Assembly: GCF_024362485.1 (NCBI RefSeq)
Contig: NZ_CP101456.1
Coordinates: 868,001 to 932,000, forward strand
Source: Natronobeatus ordinarius
GTDB taxonomy: Archaea > Halobacteriota > Halobacteria > Halobacteriales > Natrialbaceae
Reading direction: 5' to 3'
Length of the DNA: 64,000 nucleotides
Shown: one piece after another, positions 4,930 to 49,829 of the stretch
Numbering within the stretch: the stretch's first letter is position 1
How the letters are laid out: each line of letters starts with the position of its first letter
The notes under the pieces: model-generated
Told to the model about the DNA's origin: nothing
The model's input: only the letters and a program-made list of their open reading frames with translations
Database searches by the model: none
Position numbers and translations under genes: made by a program

Positions 4930-6777
4930 TCACCCGGCGAATAGCGTCGGCCCGAACAGCATCAACAGGAAGCTGACGAGCATCGTCAGGCCGACGGTCG
5001 TCGTCACGGTCCGAACCATCCCTCGGTTCGCCTCGATCGGGAGTCGCGAGAGGACAGCCTCGGTGCTCGTCCGCAGGATGTGACCGCCGTCCAGCGGGAA
5101 GGCAGGGATGCAGTTGAAAAAGCCGAGCTGGACGTTGATCCAGCCGGTCCAGAACAGCAGGTTCGCGAGCACGAAGACGGTCCCGTCGCCGAAGAGGGCG
5201 AACGAGCCCTGAGCCGTGTAGAAGTTCTCGACCCCGCCGGTGAAGCCAGCGAAGTTGAACGGGAGCATGCCGACGACGCCGACGATCGGCAAGAACAGCG
5301 CGAACACGATCTTCCCGAGGAACGAGTCGGTGAACGGATCGAGGATCGGATGGAACTCGGCTTCGGTGTTACCACCCAGGATCGCCAGGTACTGATCGGC
5401 AGGGTAGAGCTGGACGCCGAGGTCGCTCATCACGACGCCGGAGACGCCGCTTGCCCCATTGATTCCGAGGAACGCGCCGTTCCCCTGTGGGTGCTCGCCG
5501 AGCGTCACGGTGTACTCGACCCGCTCGCCGTCGAGGTAGCCGGCGACGACGACCTCGTCACCGGGCTCGAGTTCGCCGATCCGATTCTCGAAGCTCCGGT
5601 AGTCGTGGACCCGCTCGCCGTCGAACGTGGTGATGGTGAGTTCCTCACCGGCCGGTGCCCCGGCGTCGGCGAGCGGGCCGTCGGTGCCGACGACGACGAA
5701 CGCACCGATCGGCGTCTCGCGCTCGACCGTCTCGCCGTCAGCCCGCTCGACGGTGAGCGAAACCACCTCGTTGTCGCCGACGGCCTCGAAGAGGCCGGCC
5801 TGGGTTGCGACCGGCTCGCCGTCGACGGCCCGGATCGTGTCGCCGGTCTCGACGCTGGTCGGGCCGTTGGCGACCGCCACGGTCACGAGTAACGATCGCT
5901 CGACCGTGGTCTCTCGCTCGCCGTCGTCGAGTTCGACGGTCACCTCGTCGTCGGTCGTCTCCTCGAGGACCGCCGAGAGGTCGTCGTTCGTCTCGATGGG
6001 CGTGCCGTCGATCGCGGTGATGCGGTCGTTCGGTTCGATGTCGGCTTCGGCCGCCGAGGAGCCGGGAGCGACGCCGCCGACGGCCGCCCCTGGTGCGACG
6101 GCAATCGCGCCGGCGACGGGGCCGAACAGCAGGGCGAACGCGACGATCGTGACCGCGAAGTTGGCGGTGACGCCGGCGGCGAACATCCGGGTCTGACCGC
6201 CGCGGCTCGCCTCGTACTGGTCTTTCTCGTCGGGTTCGACGAACGCCCCGAGCGGGATGATCGCGAGCATGGCGACGCCCATCGACTTGATGTCGATGTC
6301 CTCGACGCGACAGAGCAGGCCGTGGGCCCCCTCGTGGACGACGAGGCCGACGAGCAGGCCGAAGACGATGCCCGGCGCGGCCGACAGCGGGAGGAAGTCG
6401 TTGACGCCCGGGATGACGAGGACGTTCTGTGGCTGCTGGACCTCCGTCGTCTCGGTCGTCTGCAGCGCGCCGAACGCCGACAGCAGCAAGACGGCGAACA
6501 TACTCACCATCACGACGAGGGAGATGCCGATGCCGAGGTTCGCCCAGGCACGCCAGAACCGTTTCGGCTTCGAGAGGCGATCTAGAAACTCACGGCCGCG
6601 TTTCGTGTGAATCGTCAGGATCGGTCCCTGGGTGCCGACGTAACTCGGCAACAGGTCCCGTTTGCGGAGCGCGACGATGGCGAGCCAGTAGGTGACGAGT
6701 CCGACGAGTACCCACGTCAGCGGACTCGACGGATCGAGGAACGCAAGAACGGCAGGCGGAGACGAACCGTAATCCAT
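4930..6777 (-). CDS. Site-2 protease family (M50) membrane metalloprotease with PDZ-like domains
   Basis: A 615-residue multi-pass membrane protein. It has N-terminal membrane segments, the zinc motif H-E-G-A-H (148-152), a long extramembrane insert (about 225-470) with repeated PDZ-like P-N-D-R-I-T-A-I-D-G segments, and the second active-site motif N-C-I-P-A-F-P-L-D-G-G with Asp563 as third zinc ligand. Site-2 proteases cleave transmembrane helices to release signalling domains; the substrate is not predictable. It is larger than the other M50 protein in this window (11022-12146) because of the PDZ insert. It lies 58 bases downstream of lysS on the same strand. Confidence 0.93.
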   Translation of the reverse strand: MDYGSSPPAVLAFLDPSSPLTWVLVGLVTYWLAIVALRKRDLLPSYVGTQGPILTIHTKRGREFLDRLSKPKRFWRAWANLGIGISLVVMVSMFAVLLLSAFGALQTTETTEVQQPQNVLVIPGVNDFLPLSAAPGIVFGLLVGLVVHEGAHGLLCRVEDIDIKSMGVAMLAIIPLGAFVEPDEKDQYEASRGGQTRMFAAGVTANFAVTIVAFALLFGPVAGAIAVAPGAAVGGVAPGSSAAEADIEPNDRITAIDGTPIETNDDLSAVLEETTDDEVTVELDDGERETTVERSLLVTVAVANGPTSVETGDTIRAVDGEPVATQAGLFEAVGDNEVVSLTVERADGETVERETPIGAFVVVGTDGPLADAGAPAGEELTITTFDGERVHDYRSFENRIGELEPGDEVVVAGYLDGERVEYTVTLGEHPQGNGAFLGINGASGVSGVVMSDLGVQLYPADQYLAILGGNTEAEFHPILDPFTDSFLGKIVFALFLPIVGVVGMLPFNFAGFTGGVENFYTAQGSFALFGDGTVFVLANLLFWTGWINVQLGFFNCIPAFPLDGGHILRTSTEAVLSRLPIEANRGMVRTVTTTVGLTMLVSFLLMLFGPTLFAG

Positions 6778-6834
6778 TGTCGTCTCTTTCGGGGACGCGC
6801 TCTCAAAGCGCTTTTGTCTCCTCGACCGGCGTCG

Positions 6835-8526
6835 TCATCGCTCCCGGCGGAGCCGGGAGACGACGAACTCCTGGTCGACCTTCGCGAGAAACGGCCCGAG
6901 CTGTGGCCCCTGGTCGTCGTCGAAAAAGAGTCGGTAGCCCGCGGCGAAGAAGTCACCGACCGGGACGTCGTGGCGCTTTGCCGTCTCGTAGATCTCACCC
7001 TGTAACTCCTCGGGGCCGGGATCCGCCTCGACGAAGTCGGCGAGTTCGGAGAGCGCCGCCTCGGTAGCCGCGTCGAAGTCGTGGTCGGGAATCTCGCTGC
7101 GCTTGAGCTCGTAGTCGAACTGGTTGCCGGTCCGACGCGCCCAGTTTCGGGCGCGTTCGACGCGAGCCAGGGCGCCGTCGACCGCCCACTCCGGCGCGTC
7201 CTCCGGGATGTGTCCCTCCCGCCGGGCGATCTCCTCGCGCAGGTCGGGATCGTCAGTCATGCCGAGCACCGCGGCGAAGGTGTAGGGCAGTCGAATGCGC
7301 GCTTCTCGCGGTTGTTCGACCACGAACGGGTAGACGCGCTCGGCGAACGCCTGCTCGTCCTCGCTCGCTTCGACCTCACCGAAGTAGATCGCCTCGAACC
7401 GGTCGAACTCGTCGACCAGCAGGTCGAGCCGTTCGATGCTGAAGTCCCGCGCCTTCGAGGGATCCTTCGCGAAGAAGTACCGGAGCACCTCGGGCTCGAG
7501 CACCTCGAGCACCTCGGAGACGAGGATCACGTTCCCTTCCGAAGACGAGAACGGCTCGCCATCGAGGGTGAACCACTCGTAGACCATCGGCACCGGTGGC
7601 TCGATTCCCAGCACGTTCCGGGCGACGTCCTCGCCGCTGGGCCAGGAGCCCTCGGCGTGGTCCTTGCCGAACGGTTCGAAGTCGACGCCGAGTACCTGCC
7701 ACTGGCCGGGCCACTCGAAGCGCCAGGGTAGCTTGCCCTCGCTAAAGCTCGCCTCGCCCTCGTGGCCACAGCCCTCGATCGTCCGGTCGCCGGCTTCCAT
7801 GTCCGTACAGCGGTACGCGACGGTTTCGGCCGCTAAATCGACAGCCGTCACCGTCTCGGTGACCTTTCCACACTCCTCGCAGATGGGGTTGAACGGGACG
7901 TACTCCTCGTCGACTTTGTCCTGGTAGTTCGCGAGCACCTCGCGTGCGCGATCCTGATTCTCGAGGACGTGGCGGACGACGGGCTCGAGTTCGCCGGACT
8001 CGTAGAGCTCGGTCGTCGAGATGAGTTCGATCGGGACGTCGAGGGCGTCGGCGCTGTCCTGGATGATCGTCGAGAAGTGCGCGCCGTAAGAGTCACAGCA
8101 GCCGAATGGGTCCGGGATGTCTGTGTACGGAACGCCGAGATTCCGACCGAGCGCCCCCGCGTCGACGTCGCCGAGGCCGACGAGCTCGCCCTCGAGGTCA
8201 CAGAGCGTCCGTGGCAGCTTTCGCAGGGGGTCGCGGTCGTCGGCAGTGAAGACCTGTTTCACCTCGTGGCCGCGGTCGCGCAGCACTTCGGCGACGTAGT
8301 AGCCGCGCATGATCTCGTTGACGTTGCCGAGGTGGGGAACGCCCGAGGGAGAGATCCCGCCTTTGATCACGATCGGTTCGTCGGGATCGCGCGCCTCGAT
8401 CTCGTCGGCGATCTCGTCGGCCCAGAAGGCGTGGTGAGCCTCACCGCCCTCGTGCTGGATCGTGTACGGACTCGAGGTCGTCGACCGTCGGTCGGCGCCC
8501 GTCTCGTCGGCGTCGTCAGTGCTCAT
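6835..8526 (-). CDS. lysS: Lysyl-tRNA synthetase, class I
   Basis: This 563-residue enzyme charges tRNA-Lys. It is the archaeal class I LysRS and not the class II bacterial/eukaryotic form. The HIGH-equivalent is P-H-L-G-N (64-68) and the KMSKS-equivalent is F-S-S-S-E-G-N (326-332). Cys pairs at C-E-E-C (216-219), C240 and C253 may form a zinc ribbon in the insertion domain. The start codon overlaps the end of pyrH by 11 bases, so the two genes are probably co-transcribed with pyrH first. Confidence 0.97.
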   Translation of the reverse strand: MSTDDADETGADRRSTTSSPYTIQHEGGEAHHAFWADEIADEIEARDPDEPIVIKGGISPSGVPHLGNVNEIMRGYYVAEVLRDRGHEVKQVFTADDRDPLRKLPRTLCDLEGELVGLGDVDAGALGRNLGVPYTDIPDPFGCCDSYGAHFSTIIQDSADALDVPIELISTTELYESGELEPVVRHVLENQDRAREVLANYQDKVDEEYVPFNPICEECGKVTETVTAVDLAAETVAYRCTDMEAGDRTIEGCGHEGEASFSEGKLPWRFEWPGQWQVLGVDFEPFGKDHAEGSWPSGEDVARNVLGIEPPVPMVYEWFTLDGEPFSSSEGNVILVSEVLEVLEPEVLRYFFAKDPSKARDFSIERLDLLVDEFDRFEAIYFGEVEASEDEQAFAERVYPFVVEQPREARIRLPYTFAAVLGMTDDPDLREEIARREGHIPEDAPEWAVDGALARVERARNWARRTGNQFDYELKRSEIPDHDFDAATEAALSELADFVEADPGPEELQGEIYETAKRHDVPVGDFFAAGYRLFFDDDQGPQLGPFLAKVDQEFVVSRLRRER

Positions 8527-9241
8527 CGTCCGCCCAGTACGTTGGTTCCTCGCCGACGCCCTCGGGGACGACGTCGGTGCCCTCGTGTTCGCCGTAGCGG
8601 GCCGCCCGAGCGATCCGGTCGGGGTCGGTGCCGTCGAGCACGATCGTCCGCATGCCCGATCGCTGGATGATCTTCGCCGCCAGCAGGTCGACCGGCGCGG
8701 AGGAGCCGGCGTTCATCTCGAGGTCGGCGATGACGTCGACCAGCTCGCGCGCGGTGAGTTCGTCGAACTTGACCGCGTCGGGGTTCTCGTTCGGATCGTC
8801 GTCGTAGACGCCCGGGACGCTCGTCGCGTAGACGAGCAGGTCGGCGTCGACGTACTCGGCGAGGGCGGCTCCGACGGCGTCGGTCGTCTGGGCCGGGGCA
8901 ACCCCGCCCATCACGCAGACGTCTCCCTGGCGGAGCGCGTTGCCCGCCTCGTCGTAGTCGTGGGCGGGCGCCGTCACCGTCCCCTCGCCCAGCGCGGCGA
9001 TGAGCAGCCGGGCGTTGAGCCTGGTGACGTCGATTCCCAGCTGATCCAGTTCGATCTCGTTCGCGCCGAGTTCGCGGGCAGCACCGATGTACTCGCGGGC
9101 GACGCCGCCACCCCCGACGACGGCACCGACCCGACAGCCATCCTCGACGAGGTCCTCGACGACGGCAGCGTGTGCCGCCACCCGGTCTGAGCCAGGTTCG
9201 GGCACGAGGACGCTTCCGCCGATGGAGACGACAACTTTCAT
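8516..9241 (-). CDS. pyrH: UMP kinase
   Basis: It phosphorylates UMP to UDP in pyrimidine nucleotide synthesis and belongs to the amino-acid-kinase fold. The 241 residues begin M-K-V-V-V-S-I-G-G-S-V, the archaeal-type phosphate-binding start; further signatures are the G-G-G-G-V-A-R-E loop and the A-T-S-V-P-G-V-Y-D-D-D-P segment typical of UMP kinase. A longer open frame upstream lacks homologous character, so the start at 9241 is chosen. It precedes and overlaps lysS. Confidence 0.95.
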   Translation of the reverse strand: MKVVVSIGGSVLVPEPGSDRVAAHAAVVEDLVEDGCRVGAVVGGGGVAREYIGAARELGANEIELDQLGIDVTRLNARLLIAALGEGTVTAPAHDYDEAGNALRQGDVCVMGGVAPAQTTDAVGAALAEYVDADLLVYATSVPGVYDDDPNENPDAVKFDELTARELVDVIADLEMNAGSSAPVDLLAAKIIQRSGMRTIVLDGTDPDRIARAARYGEHEGTDVVPEGVGEEPTYWADDEH

Positions 9242-11021: not shown

Positions 11022-12146
11022 ATGGACGACGTGGACGAACCCGACTCGAGCCCTCCGCTCGAAGCGATCGAGTCGGTGTTCGTCGTCTACGAGACGCGAA
11101 CGGACGGCGAACAGTTACGATACTACGGCGAGCCACTGCTGGCGCCCGAGCCGACGGTGCGGGAGCTGTGGCCGGTCTTCCGTGAGGCAGGATACGAGGT
11201 GCAGCTAGCGGTCGAGTACGGCGAGTACGTCCTCGTCGCCGAGCCCACCGACGTCGGCGTCGACGGCATCCCCTGGACGAACGTCTTCCTGTTCGTCGCG
11301 ACGGTGTTCTCGACGCTGTTCGCCGGTGCACAGTGGTACTACGTCGACCCGATCTCGGACCCGGTCGGTGCGGTCCTCGCGGCCTGGCCGTTCACCGTCG
11401 CGATCATTGGCGTCCTCTTTTTCCACGAGATGGGCCACTACGTGATGAGCCGCTACCACGAGGTCGACGCCTCGTTGCCGTACTTCCTCCCGGTGCCGAC
11501 GCTCATCGGAACCATGGGCGCGGTGATCAAGATCAAAGGTCGGATGCCGGACCGGAAGGTCCTGTTCGACATCGGCGTCGCCGGGCCGCTCGCCGGGCTG
11601 GTCGCGACGGTCGTCGTCACGATCGTCGGCCTCCACCTCCCGCCGGTGACCGCGCCGTCCTCGCTGGTCAACGATCCCGACGCGATCCAGATCCAGCTGG
11701 GCTATCCACCGTTGCTCGAGTTACTCGCGAGCGCGTTCGACCAGCCGCTGTACCGTGATGACCCCACGACGGCCGTCAATCCCGTCGTCATCGGCGGCTG
11801 GGTCGGGATGTTCGTCACCTTCCTCAACCTCATCCCCGTCGGCCAGCTCGACGGCGGGCACATCCTCCGGGCGGTGCTCGGCGACCGACAGGAGACGATC
11901 GGCGCGCTCGTTCCGGGTGTCCTCTTCGCGCTCGCCGGCTACCTCTACTACGTCGGTGGCCACAGCGGCAACTCGGTGTTCATCTGGGTGTTCTGGGGGC
12001 TGTTCGCCACGCTCATCGCCGCCGTTGGCCCGGCACGACCGGTCAACGACGAGCGCCTCGGGACGGGGCGGATCGTCCTCGGCGTCGTCACGTTCGTCCT
12101 CGGGATCCTCTGTTTCATGCCGGTGCCGATCGCAATCGTCAGCTGA
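11022..12146 (+). CDS. Site-2 protease family (M50) metalloprotease, compact form
   Basis: A 374-residue membrane protease. A soluble N-terminal region (1-80) precedes about seven hydrophobic segments. The zinc motif is H-E-M-G-H (135-139) and the distal motif N-L-I-P-V-G-Q-L-D-G-G-H carries Asp277. Lacking the PDZ insert, it represents the smaller archaeal S2P group, whereas the protein at 4930-6777 is the PDZ-containing group. The substrate is unknown. The 3' end converges on the YgfZ-like gene, 40 bases away. Confidence 0.93.
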   Translation: MDDVDEPDSSPPLEAIESVFVVYETRTDGEQLRYYGEPLLAPEPTVRELWPVFREAGYEVQLAVEYGEYVLVAEPTDVGVDGIPWTNVFLFVATVFSTLFAGAQWYYVDPISDPVGAVLAAWPFTVAIIGVLFFHEMGHYVMSRYHEVDASLPYFLPVPTLIGTMGAVIKIKGRMPDRKVLFDIGVAGPLAGLVATVVVTIVGLHLPPVTAPSSLVNDPDAIQIQLGYPPLLELLASAFDQPLYRDDPTTAVNPVVIGGWVGMFVTFLNLIPVGQLDGGHILRAVLGDRQETIGALVPGVLFALAGYLYYVGGHSGNSVFIWVFWGLFATLIAAVGPARPVNDERLGTGRIVLGVVTFVLGILCFMPVPIAIVS

Positions 12147-23505: not shown

Positions 23506-24234
23506 TCAGCTGTCCCCGATCCGTTCGATGGCCTCGTCGAACCGTTCGGCAGGCTGGGCGCCGACGAGCGTCCCGGCCGTCTCGGTCCCCGGATCGAAGA
23601 CGACGAACGTCGGGGTACCGGAGATTCCGAACGACTGTGCCTGCGCCGCGTCGGCCTCAACCTGTGTTTCGAACGCTTCCCGACGCTCGTCGAGACACGT
23701 CTCGAGGGCGTCTGCATCGACGCTCGAGACCGAGCGAGTGTACTCGAGGAGGCTGTCGGCCGCGGCCCAGCCGGCGTTTCGCTCGCCCTGTTCGTCGAGG
23801 ACGGCGGCGTGCCAGTCCCAGTACGCCGACGACCCGGTATCGCGGACCTGCGACCAGACGCACCGCGAGGCGACCGCGGCGGTCATCGAATCCGGGCCGA
23901 AGTACGGCAGCGCGACGAACACGACGCGAACCCGACCCGGCTCGACGTGATCGCGAACGAGTTCGGGGAGCGTCTCCCGTTCGAACCGCGCGCAGAACGG
24001 ACACTGGAAGTCGGTCCAGTAGTAAAGCTCGAGCGGGGCGTCGGCCGACCCCATGATCGGTTTGCCTGCGAGGTCGACGCCGAACGCCGACGTCTCGTCG
24101 CTGGCGTGGAACGATACGGCTCGGTCGTGATCGGGCTCATCGTCAGCGCGCGTGAGAACGTACGCGCCGGCGGCACCGAGGCTTACGACCGAGGCGGCGA
24201 GAAAGGCACGACGGGACGGCTGATCGAACGTCAT
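23506..24234 (-). CDS. Exported DsbA-family thiol oxidoreductase
   Basis: 242 residues. The N-terminus S-R-R-A-F-L-A-A-S plus a hydrophobic helix is a Tat-type signal or membrane anchor. The thioredoxin fold with a DsbA helical insert shows the catalytic C-P-F-C at 78-81 and the cis-Pro loop G-T-P-T-F-V near 210. It should form or shuffle disulfides outside the membrane. It faces away from the gene pair at 24347-25380, whose membrane CxxC motifs make them plausible electron partners. Confidence 0.9.
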   Translation of the reverse strand: MTFDQPSRRAFLAASVVSLGAAGAYVLTRADDEPDHDRAVSFHASDETSAFGVDLAGKPIMGSADAPLELYYWTDFQCPFCARFERETLPELVRDHVEPGRVRVVFVALPYFGPDSMTAAVASRCVWSQVRDTGSSAYWDWHAAVLDEQGERNAGWAAADSLLEYTRSVSSVDADALETCLDERREAFETQVEADAAQAQSFGISGTPTFVVFDPGTETAGTLVGAQPAERFDEAIERIGDS

Positions 24235-24346
24235 TCGGTATCTTCGTGCTCACGATTTCACCAGTCGACGGTAAAGGAGTCGCCGATTCGCTGGGTCAGC
24301 AAATCGGAGTCGAACGTATCAACGCGACTGTCGTTCGTTCCGATCG

Positions 24347-24895
24347 ATGAGCACGCGCGACTCGATCGAACGGTTCCTGCGGAACCTCGCGGCGGCGGTT
24401 TCGTACCCGTTCGAGAGCTGGCGAGGCACGATCGGACTGGTCATCGTCTCGCTCGCCATCTACGTCCTTCTGATCCTGAGCACGATGCCGGCGTTCTCGT
24501 TGCAGCTGCTCGGCGATGGGCTCCACTGGCTCGACTACGCCCTCGTCTCGCTCACCGAGACGGTGTACCGGACCGACGGGCCGTCGGGGCTCGCACTCGT
24601 CGTCCTCTACGCGCTGCTCTCGGGGATCGCGATCGTCAACGCGGTCGCACAGCTGCGCGTCGTCGGCCTCTCGAGTCTCGCCGACGTCTCCGGCGTGCTC
24701 CCCGGTTTCCTTGCGTCGGGCTGTGCGAGCTGTGGCGCCGGACTCCTCGGCTTCCTGGGGTTCGCCGGCGGCGTGGCGGTCCTCCCGTTCGACGGTGCAC
24801 TCCTCCGTGTCGGCGGCCTCCTCCTGTTGCTCTTCTTCCTGGGACGGACGGGCCACCCCGAGCGGTGTTCGTTCGCGATGGAGGCGGCCGAATGA
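24347..24895 (+). CDS. Membrane protein with luminal CxxC, member of a coupled pair
   Basis: 182 residues with about four helices (29-50, 83-103, 115-140, 150-168). A membrane-embedded S-G-C-A-S-C-G-A-G motif has Cys126 and Cys129 at the end of a helix, like the redox cysteines of DsbD/CcdA and quinone-linked thiol oxidases, though overall it does not resemble those families. A third cysteine is near the C-terminus (E-R-C-S-F). Its stop overlaps the next start by four bases. I do not recognise a named family. Confidence 0.8.
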   Translation: MSTRDSIERFLRNLAAAVSYPFESWRGTIGLVIVSLAIYVLLILSTMPAFSLQLLGDGLHWLDYALVSLTETVYRTDGPSGLALVVLYALLSGIAIVNAVAQLRVVGLSSLADVSGVLPGFLASGCASCGAGLLGFLGFAGGVAVLPFDGALLRVGGLLLLLFFLGRTGHPERCSFAMEAAE

Positions 24896-25380
24896 CGGGA
24901 CGTGGCCTCGTCCGGACGGTCCGATCGAATCCGCGCGCGGTCGCGTGGGGCACGCTCACTGCGGTCGGCGTGTTCTCGCTGTTCGGTCTCGTCACCGGCC
25001 TGATTCCGAACCCACTCTACGTTCGGATGGTGTCACGGACGCCGACAGACTATCTGTTTCTCACGCTGACCGCGCTGCTGGCTGGCGTGTACGTCACCCA
25101 GCGGCTGACGACCGAGGTGGCCTGCACACAACCCGAGGACGCGGGTGGACGGTTCGATGGAGGGAGCACGGACCGCTGGGCGTTCGGGGGGCTGGTCGGC
25201 GGTTTCCTGGCGGTCGGCTGTCCGGTCTGTAACGCCGTCCTGCTCGCGCTGTTCAGTTCCTCGATGCTCATGACGTACTTCGACCCACTACGACCGCTCC
25301 TGGGGCTCCTCTCGGTCGCGCTCCTGGCGGGACTGATCTCCGTGCGCCACCGACGGACGTGTGGGGTGTGTAACCTATGA
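24892..25380 (+). CDS. Membrane protein with two CxxC motifs, second member of the pair
   Basis: 162 residues with about four helices. C-P-V-C at 110-113 sits at the start of a helix (F-L-A-V-G-C-P-V-C-N-A-V-L-L-A-L), and the C-terminus R-T-C-G-V-C-N-L gives a second CxxC at 157-160 in the cytoplasm or outside. With the preceding gene it forms a translationally coupled pair, reminiscent of a split DsbD-type thiol relay. The function is inferred only from the cysteines and the neighbours. Confidence 0.8.
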   Translation: MTGRGLVRTVRSNPRAVAWGTLTAVGVFSLFGLVTGLIPNPLYVRMVSRTPTDYLFLTLTALLAGVYVTQRLTTEVACTQPEDAGGRFDGGSTDRWAFGGLVGGFLAVGCPVCNAVLLALFSSSMLMTYFDPLRPLLGLLSVALLAGLISVRHRRTCGVCNL

Positions 25381-25430
25381 ACGCAGGCTCGAGTCCCGAC
25401 GTCGGAACCGCCCACTCTCGAGAACCGCCG

Positions 25431-25440
25431 GCTATTTGTG
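25431..25440 (+). promoter_or_regulatory. TATA-like element before the winged-helix regulator
   Basis: GCTATTTGTG lies 23-32 bases before the ATG at 25463 and fits a leaderless start. Confidence 0.45.
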
Positions 25441-25462
25441 ATCGTCCGGCGATGCCAGTGCC

Positions 25463-25822
25463 ATGAACCGGGCGGGGGACGTGACTCCGGCGGACGTCTT
25501 CGAGTTGCTGGCAGACGAGTACGCCCGGCGGATCCTCGTCGCCGCCGATCGGAGGCCGATGACCGCGAAAGCGCTGAGCGACGCCTGTGACGCCTCGCTC
25601 GCGACGGTCTACCGGCGCGCCTCGATGCTTGAAGAACACGGCCTCCTCGAGGAACGACGGACGATCGGGTCCGACGGCACTCACCGGCGCAAGTTCGAGA
25701 CGGTGCTCGAGGAGCTCCACGTCGACCTCTCGGAGGGAGAGCTGACCGTCAGCGTGGACACGCGGGACGAACTCGCGGACAACTTTACGTCGCTGTGGGA
25801 CGAGCTTCGGGGGAGCCGATGA
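25463..25822 (+). CDS. ArsR-like winged-helix regulator
   Basis: 119 residues with a winged helix (10-75): V-F-E-L-L-A-D-E-Y-A-R-R-I-L, the recognition helix region S-D-A-C-D-A-S-L-A-T-V-Y-R-R, then the wing L-L-E-E-R-R. No metal-binding Cys pair is seen, so it is not a classical metal sensor. It overlaps the next gene by four bases (ATGA), and this regulator plus small membrane protein pair recurs in haloarchaea. It may control the surrounding thiol/copper genes; that is inference from position. Confidence 0.85.
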   Translation: MNRAGDVTPADVFELLADEYARRILVAADRRPMTAKALSDACDASLATVYRRASMLEEHGLLEERRTIGSDGTHRRKFETVLEELHVDLSEGELTVSVDTRDELADNFTSLWDELRGSR

Positions 25823-26085
25823 CCGAAGCACCCTTTCTCGCCGCGAAGCTCGTCACGCTCGCGTTGAGTCTCGCGGTCGCGTATCTGGCCTACCATGGCT
25901 ACCGGCGAAACGGCCGCGAGCCGATGCTGTACGTCTCCGCCGGCTTCGTCCTCATCGGCGCCGGTGCGATCTGTGAGGGACTCATCTACCTGTTCTTTGG
26001 GACCTCGATCGTCTCTGCGGGCCTCATTCAGGCGGTGATCGTCTCGAGCGGCATGCTCTGTGTCCTCTTCTCGCTGACGAAGTGA
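25819..26085 (+). CDS. DUF7521-like small membrane protein
   Basis: 88 residues, three transmembrane helices (7-26, 36-55, 63-85). Coupled by a 4-base overlap to the winged-helix regulator, it belongs to a haloarchaeal family that is usually paired with such a regulator. It might be a membrane sensor or anchor for it. It has no catalytic residues. Confidence 0.78.
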   Translation: MTEAPFLAAKLVTLALSLAVAYLAYHGYRRNGREPMLYVSAGFVLIGAGAICEGLIYLFFGTSIVSAGLIQAVIVSSGMLCVLFSLTK

Positions 26086-26086
26086 C

Positions 26087-26320
26087 TCACGAGTCCGGCA
26101 CGCAGTCGGTCTCACAGCCCGCACACCCGGTCCGTCGCCGGAGCGCGAAGACGGCGATCACGAGCGCCAGCGCGAGGACGGCCGTCTCGACGAGTCCGGC
26201 GCCCATCCCACTGGCGGCGACGCCACCGGTCACGGCGGCGGTTCCGGGGCCGAGACAGCAGAGACTCGCGAGCCCCCCGACGCCGACGATCGACCGTCGT
26301 GCTGCCGTGTCGTCGTCCAT
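26087..26320 (-). CDS. Small cysteine-containing membrane protein
   Basis: 77 residues, two helices. A C-C-L-G-P-G motif starts the first helix region (21-26), and the C-terminus carries T-G-C-A-G-C-E-T-D-C. The vicinal Cys pair plus terminal cysteines resembles small mercury/copper membrane carriers (MerF/MerT-like), but homology cannot be confirmed by eye. A TATA element (CTATATCG region, 26345-26352 on the minus strand) gives a leaderless start. It lies within the thiol/copper island. Confidence 0.68.
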   Translation of the reverse strand: MDDDTAARRSIVGVGGLASLCCLGPGTAAVTGGVAASGMGAGLVETAVLALALVIAVFALRRRTGCAGCETDCVPDS

Positions 26321-26344
26321 CGGTCGTTCCTTCGCGACCGATCA

Positions 26345-26352
26345 CTATATCG
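26345..26352 (-). promoter_or_regulatory. TATA box of the small Cys membrane protein
   Basis: On the minus strand CGATATAG lies about 25-32 bases before the ATG at 26320. Confidence 0.5.
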
Positions 26353-26527
26353 ATTGGGGAACCACTCGCCGGCAGCGCAGCCGACGGCATCGCGCCGGCG
26401 GGACGCTCGAGTCGGCCCCGAACCGCTTCCGCCCTGGGCGCCGGCCCGGGCTCGAGTCGACCAGGCCGTACGGACGAACGCGTCGGCGACGGGCCCGATT
26501 TGCCGACCCGGAGAATCGGCGGATCCG

Positions 26528-26535
26528 GTTTATCT
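26528..26535 (+). promoter_or_regulatory. TATA-like box before the SCO1 gene
   Basis: A GTTTATCT-type element lies about 25 bases before the ATG at 26557, consistent with a leaderless transcript for the SCO1-TlpA-CcdA operon. Confidence 0.5.
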
Positions 26536-26556
26536 GCCTGTGCGAAAGTCAGACGT

Positions 26557-27240
26557 ATGGACCGTCGCCACTACCTGCAGGCGGTCGCGACGGCGGGCGT
26601 CACCGGCGTCGCCGGCTGTCTCGATGGGCTGTCGGAAACCGACGATGGGAAGACCGTACTCGAGCCGCCGGCACAGGATCTGAGCGCGGCGTCACACCCC
26701 AGTTACGGTGACGAACTGCCCGAACTCGAGCTCCCGGATCCGCTCACCGGCGAGCCGGTCTCGACGACGCAGTTCGAGGGCGAGCGAGCCGTCCTGTTGA
26801 CGTTCTTCTACACGAACTGTCCCGACGGAATGTGTCCCGCGTTGATCTTGCGGCTCCGGCGGTCACAGGAGGTCGCCGCCGCGGAGGGCTACGACGACGA
26901 CATCGCGTTCCTCGCAATGACCTTCGACCCCGAACGTGACACCGCAGTCGAACTCGAGAGCTACGGCGTCGAACGGGGTGTCGACCTCGAGGCCGGCAAC
27001 TGGCACTATCTGCGTCCGGACCGATACGAGGACGGAGCGACGGTCCTCACCGAACGGTTCGGGCTGCCACTCAAGAAGGTCGACGCCGAGGAGTACGACC
27101 ACCTCGAGTACGTCTTTCCGCACTACAACCTGCTCTTGCTGGTCAACGAACGGGGGATCGTCGAGCGCGCCTATCCCAACGGCGCAACCGTCGAGGTCGC
27201 TCGCGTCGTCGCGGACGTCGAAACGGTGGTGACCGCCTGA
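26557..27240 (+). CDS. SCO1/SenC family copper chaperone lipoprotein, CX4C variant
   Basis: 227 residues. A signal with lipobox (V-A-G-C, Cys21) should anchor it outside the membrane. The thioredoxin-like SCO domain spans about 55-227, with N-C-P-D-G-M-C (Cys88, Cys93) and the downstream His189 in F-P-H-Y-N. SCO1 proteins deliver copper to the CuA site of cytochrome oxidase or reduce it. Normal SCO has C-x3-C; here four residues separate the cysteines. It heads an operon with a TlpA-like protein (1-base gap) and CcdA (overlap), which is a cytochrome-biogenesis context. Confidence 0.87.
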   Translation: MDRRHYLQAVATAGVTGVAGCLDGLSETDDGKTVLEPPAQDLSAASHPSYGDELPELELPDPLTGEPVSTTQFEGERAVLLTFFYTNCPDGMCPALILRLRRSQEVAAAEGYDDDIAFLAMTFDPERDTAVELESYGVERGVDLEAGNWHYLRPDRYEDGATVLTERFGLPLKKVDAEEYDHLEYVFPHYNLLLLVNERGIVERAYPNGATVEVARVVADVETVVTA

Positions 27241-27241
27241 G

Positions 27242-27805
27242 ATGCGTCGACGAGACGTCCTCGCCGGCGTCGGCAGCGTCGGCGTGCTCGCAGGTGCCGG
27301 CCTCGTCGCGACGCGCGGCGTCCCGTCGTTCGACGACGGCAACGGGGATGGCGCCACCGTCGACGCGGGAGCCGACCCGATCACCGTCGAGACGCTCGAG
27401 GCGCCGGGAAGCAGCGCCGGCGAGGTGACGGTCCCCGCGGGCGATCGGGTGACGTTCGTCGACTTCTTCGGGACGTGGTGTCCGCCGTGTGTCGAACAGA
27501 TGCCGGCGCTCGGGGCGGCCCACGAGCGCGTCGGCGACTCGGTGCAGTTCATGTCGGTGACGACCGAACCGGTCGGCGACGCGGTCCCCGAGTCGACGGT
27601 CGTCGAGTGGTGGGACGAACACGACGGAAACTGGCTGCTCGGGATCGACCCAACCGCCGAACTCGCAGCCCGGTACCTCGCGGGCGGGTTTCCGTCCGCC
27701 GCAGCCATCGACGCGGCCGGACGCGTGCAGTGGTCGGACGCGGGCGTCAAGACGGCTGCCGAACTCGTCGCCGGGATCGGACGGGCACTCGAGGCCGATG
27801 AGTGA
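27242..27805 (+). CDS. TlpA/ResA-like exported thioredoxin
   Basis: 187 residues. The R-R-R-D-V-L-A-G-V start and hydrophobic stretch form a Tat signal or anchor. The thioredoxin fold carries W-C-P-P-C (79-83) and a cis-Pro loop G-F-P-S-A near 156. It should be a reductant of apocytochrome c or of SCO/CuA thiols. It lies between SCO1 and ccdA, and its last codons overlap ccdA by 8 bases, so it is very likely fed electrons by CcdA. Confidence 0.9.
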   Translation: MRRRDVLAGVGSVGVLAGAGLVATRGVPSFDDGNGDGATVDAGADPITVETLEAPGSSAGEVTVPAGDRVTFVDFFGTWCPPCVEQMPALGAAHERVGDSVQFMSVTTEPVGDAVPESTVVEWWDEHDGNWLLGIDPTAELAARYLAGGFPSAAAIDAAGRVQWSDAGVKTAAELVAGIGRALEADE

Positions 27806-28466
27806 CGCGGCGCTCGCCACGTCCCTCTCGTTCGCGCTCACGGCGGGCGTCGCGACGTTCTTCTCCCCCTGTGCGTACCCGCTGTTGCCGGGCTACGTCG
27901 GGTTCTACGTCAACCGGACGGACAGCGACGGAGTGACGCTTCGCGGTGCGGGGGCTCGTGGCATCGCCGCGGGACTCGGTGTACTCGCGACTTTCAGCGT
28001 CCTGTCGGGGGTGACGCTCGCGGCGGGTCACGCCGCGCTGTCGAACAGTACGTTTCTCGAGGTGCTCGTCGGGGCAGCACTGGTCGCGTTCGGCCTTCTC
28101 GTGGTGACGGGATCGGCACCGTCGATCACGCTGGCACTCCCGAAGCGACGGTCAGGGATCCTCGGCTTCGGCATCTTCGGCGCGGGGTACGCGCTGGCCG
28201 GGGCCGGCTGCGTGGCCCCGGTCTTCCTCGCCGTCGTGACTCACACGATCGTCCTCCCGCCCGGCAGCGCCGCCCTCGTCCTCGCGACGTACGCCGGCGT
28301 GGTTGCCGTCCTGATGGTCTCGGTGACGGTTGCGACCGGAATCGGGCTGCTCACGGGCGCGGGACTGTTCGCACCCCACGCGAAGACGATCGAGCGACTC
28401 GCCGGGGTGGTGATGATCCTCGCCGGCCTCGGCCAGCTCTCCCTCGCCCTCTTCGTCTACAGATAA
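27798..28466 (+). CDS. ccdA: Cytochrome c biogenesis protein CcdA
   Basis: 222 residues, six membrane helices. The two conserved redox cysteines are in F-F-S-P-C-A-Y-P (Cys25) and A-G-A-G-C-V-A-P (Cys138), the CcdA/DsbD signature. It moves electrons from cytoplasmic thioredoxin across the membrane to extracytoplasmic acceptors, here probably the TlpA-like protein encoded just upstream. Length is that of the minimal CcdA core. Confidence 0.93.
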   Translation: MSDAALATSLSFALTAGVATFFSPCAYPLLPGYVGFYVNRTDSDGVTLRGAGARGIAAGLGVLATFSVLSGVTLAAGHAALSNSTFLEVLVGAALVAFGLLVVTGSAPSITLALPKRRSGILGFGIFGAGYALAGAGCVAPVFLAVVTHTIVLPPGSAALVLATYAGVVAVLMVSVTVATGIGLLTGAGLFAPHAKTIERLAGVVMILAGLGQLSLALFVYR

Positions 28467-29181: not shown

Positions 29182-29433
29182 ATGGTCGGACTCTTCGACT
29201 CGATCAAACTCGTCGGCGTGCTCATCCTCGCGATCCCTGCCGCGCTCGCTGGCCTCGAGTTCCTGCTCGTCCGGGGCGAGCCGGTCATCGGCGCGGCCCT
29301 CCTCGTGCTCGCGACGGCGCTCGTCGTCGGTCAGCACTACCTCTCGTTGCCGACGAGCGTTCGTGGACTGCTTCTGAACGGCGTTCTCGGCTCGGGCTCG
29401 GCTGACTCGGAGTCGGAGTCGAGAGACGACTGA
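29182..29433 (+). CDS. DUF7533-like small membrane protein
   Basis: 83 residues, two helices (7-29, 35-55), then a Ser/Glu-rich disordered tail. The start M-V-G-L-F-D-S-I-K-L and the charged loop are conserved in haloarchaea. It is divergent from ribE. Function unknown. Confidence 0.72.
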   Translation: MVGLFDSIKLVGVLILAIPAALAGLEFLLVRGEPVIGAALLVLATALVVGQHYLSLPTSVRGLLLNGVLGSGSADSESESRDD

Positions 29434-49202: not shown

Positions 49203-49829
49203 ATGGCCACCGACACCGACGACCGGATCGTCTGCTACGCAGACTACGTCTGTCCGTTCTGCTATCTCGGGCGGACCTCGCTCGAGCGCTATCGCGAGGA
49301 ACGCGAGGAGCCCCTCGCGGTCGAGTGGCACCCGTTCGACCTTCGGGCGGGCAAGCGAAACGCCGACGGCTCGATCGACCACGACGCCGACGACGGGAAA
49401 GACGAGGCGTACTACGAGCAAGCGAAGCGGAACGTCCGCCGCCTGCAGGAGGAGTACGACGTCGAGATGGGCCAGGAACTGGCGATCGAGGTCGATTCGC
49501 TTCCCGCCCAGCTCACCTCGTTCTTCGTCGCGCGTGAACACCCCGGAGTGTGGCCGGCGTTCGACGCGGCGATCTACGAGGCGCTGTGGGTCGACGGTCG
49601 AGATATCGGCGACCCCGACGTACTCGTCGACCTCGCCGGCGAGGTCGGGATTCCAGAAGCCGAGATTCGAGACGCCCTCGAGGACGAGGAGCTCCGCGAC
49701 CGGCTCGAGGAACGGTTCGACGACGCGAGACGGGCGGGGGTTACGGGCGTCCCGGCGTTCGTCTTCGAGGGACAGGTCGCCCGTGGAGCCGTTCCGCCGG
49801 AGCACCTGCGGCGGCTCGTCGACGGATAG
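49203..49829 (+). CDS. DsbA/FrnE-family dithiol oxidoreductase
   Basis: 208 residues with V-C-P-F-C-Y (active-site Cys17 and Cys20), thioredoxin fold with a long helical insert, and the cis-Pro loop T-G-V-P-A-F-V. FrnE-like proteins lack a signal peptide and act in the cytoplasm in polyketide or stress redox chemistry. It converges tail to tail with the NAD kinase gene, 5 bases apart. Confidence 0.9.
   Translation: MATDTDDRIVCYADYVCPFCYLGRTSLERYREEREEPLAVEWHPFDLRAGKRNADGSIDHDADDGKDEAYYEQAKRNVRRLQEEYDVEMGQELAIEVDSLPAQLTSFFVAREHPGVWPAFDAAIYEALWVDGRDIGDPDVLVDLAGEVGIPEAEIRDALEDEELRDRLEERFDDARRAGVTGVPAFVFEGQVARGAVPPEHLRRLVDG

Follow-up and report, generated by a model that had tools for sequence, protein, structure and literature searches.

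Two homologous membrane proteins with conserved cysteines, a linked DsbA-like gene and remote similarity to MerT: a candidate transmembrane thiol relay in haloarchaea

What might two small membrane proteins carry when they are encoded beside a DsbA-like protein and among other extracytoplasmic thiol and copper genes in the haloarchaeon Natronobeatus ordinarius? The two genes, for which the labels memA and memB were coined in this analysis, lie in the window, a stretch of 64,000 nucleotides from contig NZ_CP101456.1 (positions 868,001 to 932,000 of the forward strand), and coordinates refer to the window unless stated otherwise. The original prediction was that the pair could be a split DsbB/DsbD-like unit that recharges DsbA. 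We tentatively favour another reading, in which memA and memB, with a dedicated DsbA-like partner bearing a CPFC active site, form a transmembrane thiol relay with Cu(I) as first-choice cargo. The three genes concerned are as follows.

23506-24234, minus strand: DsbA-like exported thioredoxin-fold protein with a Tat-type signal and C78-PF-C81 (Pfam Thioredoxin_4, PF13462, E 6e-21)
24347-24895, plus strand: memA, 182 amino acids, four predicted transmembrane (TM) helices, GCASCG (C126/C129) and a C-terminal C174
24892-25380, plus strand: memB, 162 amino acids, four predicted TM helices, CPVC (C110/C113) and CGVC (C157/C160)

The stop codon of memA and the start codon of memB share the ATGA at 24892-24895. 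The island genes and the CASC, CPVC and CGVC motifs were present as originally listed, once gene boundaries were corrected, with memA C174 as an additional cysteine that had been overlooked. The pair had been called unassigned, and neither protein, nor any homologue, matched a family in Pfam or NCBIfam scans; a PDB sequence search with the pair returned nothing credible. No description of the pair was found in the full-text literature searched, which leaves most subscription papers outside its coverage, so a description elsewhere is possible.

The cysteines of both proteins were conserved, as had been predicted. Among divergent haloarchaeal homologues (72 genome loci and relatives), C126, C129 and C174 of memA were kept in 83 of 84 sequences, while in memB C110/C113 were kept in 55 of 56 and C157/C160 in 54 of 56. 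Because they are retained across such divergent homologues, the motifs go beyond chance. The relatives recovered were haloarchaeal, and the best matches came from Natrialbaceae. A memA profile also picked up a second subfamily, only distantly related (GxLGAGCAACG ... GCPVD), which shares all three cysteines and is present in many haloarchaea. Of 145 genomes from the order, 71 encoded memA of one subfamily or the other. Profile-profile comparison aligned memA with all memB at P 2.5e-6, CxxC on CxxC and tail cysteine on tail cysteine, and with bacterial memB at P 6e-8, again CxxC on CxxC, whereas the controls (CcdA, VKOR, DUF7521 and a small CC protein of the island) gave P 0.0018 or worse. Judged by these profiles, memA and memB are homologues within one unnamed family.

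The two genes also occur apart. memB lay within 3 kb of memA in 47 of 72 loci of the close memA subfamily, and memB was commoner in genomes with close memA (32 of 41 versus 9 of 104 in the 145 genomes; Fisher 4e-16, uncorrected for kinship). At 19 loci of the distant subfamily there was no separate memB gene, one apparent match being the memA open reading frame (ORF) itself. In bacteria memB was found in Azospirillum, Thermomicrobium, Sinorhizobium, Gemmobacter, Streptomyces, Rhodococcus, Arthrobacter and others; a BLAST search of a plasmid collection yielded no bacterial memA, its matches being haloarchaeal only. With memA lacking memB at many loci, memB present in bacteria without memA, and the two proteins homologous, the idea of one split unit was not supported. 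In Natrinema gelatinilyticum, memB and a winged-helix regulator share one open frame (8171-9223 of the extracted locus), which may be a fusion or a sequencing error. The N. ordinarius genome itself holds a second, stand-alone memB (genome positions 2684400-2684816; 11395-11823 of the extracted stretch) with an extra loop cysteine pair (ECDGDACAY); relatives bearing ECSGDRCAY are found elsewhere, some of them without redox neighbours.

We then asked which known family the pair resembles. None of 55 memA and 40 memB members matched the DsbB, VKOR or DsbD families of Pfam, and profile similarity was not detectable to either VKOR (hhalign P 0.4 and 0.075) or CcdA (P 0.23 and 0.015, in the range of other controls). 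The detectable relative was instead the mercury transporter MerT (PF02411). TM3-TM4 of bacterial memB aligned with TM1-TM2 of MerT at P 1.8e-6, and all memB at 6e-5. Like the P values for memA against memB, these were obtained by comparing profiles in pairs with few controls, and MerT was represented by an alignment of only five sequences; reversed MerT gave P 0.08-0.17, and CcdA, VKOR and DUF7521 against MerT gave 0.014-0.5. Single-sequence scans favoured MerT weakly (best 9.5e-5), and scores were far under the MerT cut-offs: the best bacterial memB reached 17.3 bits against the 32.9 required by PF02411, which matched 4 of 40 haloarchaeal memB with a best E of 0.019. Since memA itself was not significant against MerT, its tie to MerT runs through memB.

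Topology was predicted from hydropathy and charge pattern over the alignments. Both proteins probably have four helices with both termini inside. The CxxC would fall in the third hydrophobic stretch, which is long, and the cysteines near the C terminus would face the cytoplasm; in memB, CPVC would sit mid-membrane and CGVC in the cytoplasmic tail. The likeness to MerT would extend to this layout, in that memB TM3-TM4 and tail align with MerT TM1-TM2 and its cytoplasmic cysteine region, memB has a membrane cysteine pair and a cytoplasmic one, and a 'G.SGA ... P.RP' region is common to both. Unlike MerT, which has a vicinal CC in TM1, the pair has CxxC and two extra N-terminal helices, the cytoplasmic cysteine pair is confined to haloarchaeal memB (memA has a single cysteine), and the partner is DsbA-like rather than MerP. 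No MerR, MerP or MerA was found at the inspected loci.

A DsbA-like gene lay within 1 kb of memA in 62 of 72 close loci and within 3 kb in 68, and within 1 kb in 17 of 19 distant loci, counts that are not phylogenetically independent; by genus, it was within 1 kb in all 38 sampled. Conservation of the pair with DsbA and SCO1 across haloarchaea had been suggested as a check; linkage to DsbA was borne out for memA, and SCO1 was found within 8 kb at 17 of the 72 loci. When 106 DsbA domains were placed in one tree, with an arbitrary root and a non-adjacent sample biased to the best Pfam scorers, the memA-adjacent proteins formed exactly two well-supported clades, one per memA subfamily; the sampled non-adjacent haloarchaeal DsbAs formed another, apart from two long unplaced branches. 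Thioredoxin-fold proteins associated with bacterial memB clustered together (87/80) beside the CPFC clade.

The active sites of these partners bear on the predicted oxidase role. CPHC is the oxidase-type DsbA motif. Partners of close memA carried CPFC, or CPIC or CPYC, and never CPHC, together with an extra cysteine pair (C125 in 54 of 55, C180 in 53 of 55) absent from other DsbA groups; the sampled non-adjacent paralogues were mostly CPHC, and the CPHC proteins were encoded away from memA. The window protein has the CxxC and cis-Pro (GTP) of a DSBA/Thioredoxin_4 protein, and it fell in the CPFC clade, separate from the CPHC clade, and so outside the oxidase type. A family search for paralogues in the same genome found two other full-length Thioredoxin_4 proteins, carrying CPAC and CGGC; their lipoprotein-like genes stand in tandem at genome positions 90302-92004 (6303-8005 of their own extracted stretch). 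Within the window, 49638-49823 gave a partial, weak Thioredoxin_4 match (E 2.5e-4).

These data make it very improbable that the pair is a split DsbB/DsbD-like unit re-oxidizing a DsbA that makes disulfides in secreted proteins. Linkage to a DsbA-like gene and a conserved CxxC are what such a unit would show, and the placing of a DsbA-like protein beside a small four-helix protein with CxxC does recall DsbA-DsbB and DsbA-VKOR. The partner is not of the CPHC class, however, no sequence similarity to DsbB, VKOR or DsbD was detected, the cysteines appear to be placed differently, with the extra ones predicted to be cytoplasmic, and memA and memB each occur without the other. VKOR and memA co-occurred in the 145 genomes, mutual exclusion not being seen, and N. 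ordinarius itself has a VKOR gene (genome positions 2674038-2674406), which is separated from the second memB by about 10 kb. Of the predicted relay, the thiol partnership with a DsbA-like protein was supported, while the family assignment, the single unit and the oxidase role were not.

The remaining genes of the island are listed below.

25463-25822, plus strand: winged-helix regulator, HTH_20/IclR-like
25819-26085, plus strand: DUF7521 small membrane protein (PF24365, E 1.6e-17)
26087-26320, minus strand: small two-helix CC membrane protein, SLCC in helix 1 and a CAGC tail, MerF-like by eye only
26557-27240, plus strand: SCO1-like Tat lipoprotein (PF02630, E 9e-14), CPDGMCP
27242-27805, plus strand: TlpA/ResA-like extracytoplasmic thiol reductase, by profile match, WCPPC
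27798-28466, plus strand: CcdA-like transmembrane electron carrier, by motifs only (SPCAYPLLPGY ... GAGCVAPV), without a Pfam match

The winged-helix and DUF7521 genes overlap by four bases. The CC protein resembles MerF in its CC in helix 1 and cysteine-rich tail; its profile was not significant against MerT (P 0.014). SCO1 proteins usually have CxxxCP; the SCO1-like protein here has four residues between its cysteines, and CPDGxCP occurred in 16 of 19 related ORFs. Just beyond the island lies a DUF7533 small membrane protein (29182-29433; PF24377, E 6.5e-19). Within 5 kb of close memA, the winged-helix gene was found at 47 of 72 loci, DUF7521 at 46 and the CC protein at 31. Meanwhile, SCO1 (16 loci) and TlpA (12) were less frequent within 6 kb, and at 8 kb TlpA reached 15 and CcdA 21. 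With SCO1, TlpA and CcdA each present at 15-21 of 72 loci within 8 kb, the SCO1-TlpA-CcdA island is a local arrangement and not the defining context.

Other neighbours pointed to the thioredoxin system. Within 6 kb of close memA, thioredoxin was encoded at 30 of 72 loci and a CoA-disulfide-reductase-like flavoprotein at 25, with TrxR near 8, and a CcdA-like gene directly followed memA at six haloarchaeal loci. Bacterial memB repeatedly overlapped or adjoined a thioredoxin- or DsbA-like gene and CcdA, as in DsbA-CcdA-memB (Pseudonocardia), Trx-CcdA-memB (two Arthrobacter), memB-Trx-CcdA (Streptomyces), memB-TlpA (Mycolicibacterium) and DsbA-memB (Azospirillum). It is also possible, if rather doubtful, that memA and memB connect cytosolic thioredoxin with the CPFC DsbA-like protein by shuttling reducing equivalents, in the manner of CcdA and DsbD, or act in the oxidase direction. 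The near-obligate DsbA partner, the thioredoxin-system genes and the strings DsbA-memA-CcdA and Trx-CcdA-memB are consistent with such electron transfer, as is the AlphaFold2 model of memA, in which the helix breaks at CASC near mid-membrane, albeit with low local confidence (mean pLDDT 79.5 for memA and 67.8 for memB). A second electron carrier would be redundant, however, where CcdA is in the same operon, as it often is; the cysteines of memA are odd in number, and the profile similarity is to MerT and not to CcdA or VKOR. SoxV-SoxW and TlpA-CcdA likewise place extracytoplasmic thioredoxin-fold proteins beside CcdA, in actinobacteria with memB as well; memA and memB differ in adding a further membrane component, one for which no similarity to CcdA was detected.

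Sulfur genes formed a further part of the neighbourhood. Within 6 kb of close memA, rhodanese-MBL fusions were encoded at 17 loci, TauE/SafE at 17, DsrE at 14 and DUF302 at 11, with at least one of the four at 39 of 72; TauE, at 17 of 72, would be expected in roughly 0.8% of such stretches given its copy number in the genome. The loci are not independent, but the sulfur and thioredoxin-system genes around memA came from 5 to 17 genera each, and rhodanese, MBL, TauE or DsrE genes also occurred at bacterial memB loci. The cysteines might relay the sulfur of persulfide or thiosulfate through the membrane, with rhodanese and persulfide-dioxygenase enzymes as recipients. SoxV/SoxW, a CcdA and an extracytoplasmic thioredoxin that serve sulfur oxidation (cited in PMC10451225), would be a precedent. 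We consider a sulfane-sulfur relay unlikely: the distant memA loci, of which a shorter span was read, held no such genes, and the window has none beside the pair, where the neighbours indicate SCO1 and oxidase.

Copper genes were also seen around memB. Several bacterial memB loci held P-type ATPases, a multicopper oxidase or copper-binding proteins, and the second memB of N. ordinarius is immediately followed by a copper-type P-ATPase gene, with a cytochrome oxidase subunit I/III (CoxA/III) gene on its other side. Wide occurrence without redox neighbours, which the original prediction had named alongside unconserved cysteines as evidence against itself, was not seen for memA; some stand-alone memB loci had no evident redox neighbour.

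A dedicated non-CPHC DsbA-like partner, an intramembrane CxxC, cytoplasmic-side cysteines and a MerT-like hairpin together fit a transmembrane thiol relay, whose operation, direction and metal are what we infer. The exported CPFC DsbA-like protein would give a thiol-bound cargo to the mid-membrane CxxC, and the cargo would then move on to the cytoplasmic-tail cysteines, or in the reverse direction. It may be Cu(I), a thiophilic metal that would be handled next to SCO1 either for cytochrome oxidase or for copper balance, while TlpA/CcdA and thioredoxin could supply the reductant that keeps the relay cysteines usable. In MerT, Hg(II) is reportedly handed from Cys24/25 in TM1 to Cys76/82 at the cytoplasmic face (PMC5715351). 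ScsC, a DsbA-like protein, has a subpicomolar affinity for Cu(I), and a membrane partner keeps it reduced (PMC8900818). We rank Cu(I) first because of the similarity to MerT, the oxidase/copper setting and the ScsC precedent, with electrons close behind and sulfane sulfur after them. The suppressor of copper sensitivity system (ScsB/ScsC/ScsD) is alike in combining a non-oxidase DsbA-like protein, a membrane carrier that keeps it reduced, and copper handling. It differs in that the island has no DsbD-type ScsB (alpha and gamma domains), the membrane partner appears to be an unrelated cysteine hairpin, and Cu(I) binding by the window partner is putative.

Several observations weigh against a Cu(I) relay. 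Beyond its CxxC, memA has one cysteine only, and most bacterial memB tails are without the second CxxC; the direct comparison of memA with MerT gave P 0.14. Near close memA, thioredoxin, the flavoprotein and the sulfur families taken together were commoner than SCO1, and the distant memA loci, over the shorter range, had DsbA alone and none of these other neighbours. Neither Foldseek (memA model only) nor VIA-align gave a trustworthy structural match in the PDB, the models being weak.

Extracytoplasmic disulfide and copper handling in archaea is poorly mapped, and a gene pair, a DsbA-like partner and residues to mutate are now defined. An unnamed family of remote MerT kin, spread over haloarchaea and several bacterial phyla, could with its dedicated thioredoxin-fold partner be a new class of transmembrane thiol relay for Cu(I) or reducing equivalents, one that works without CcdA, DsbD, DsbB or VKOR, a proposal that we advance with some reserve. 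It would tie the mercury-transport hairpin to thiol chemistry beyond mer operons and would make MerT a specialized member of a broader family.

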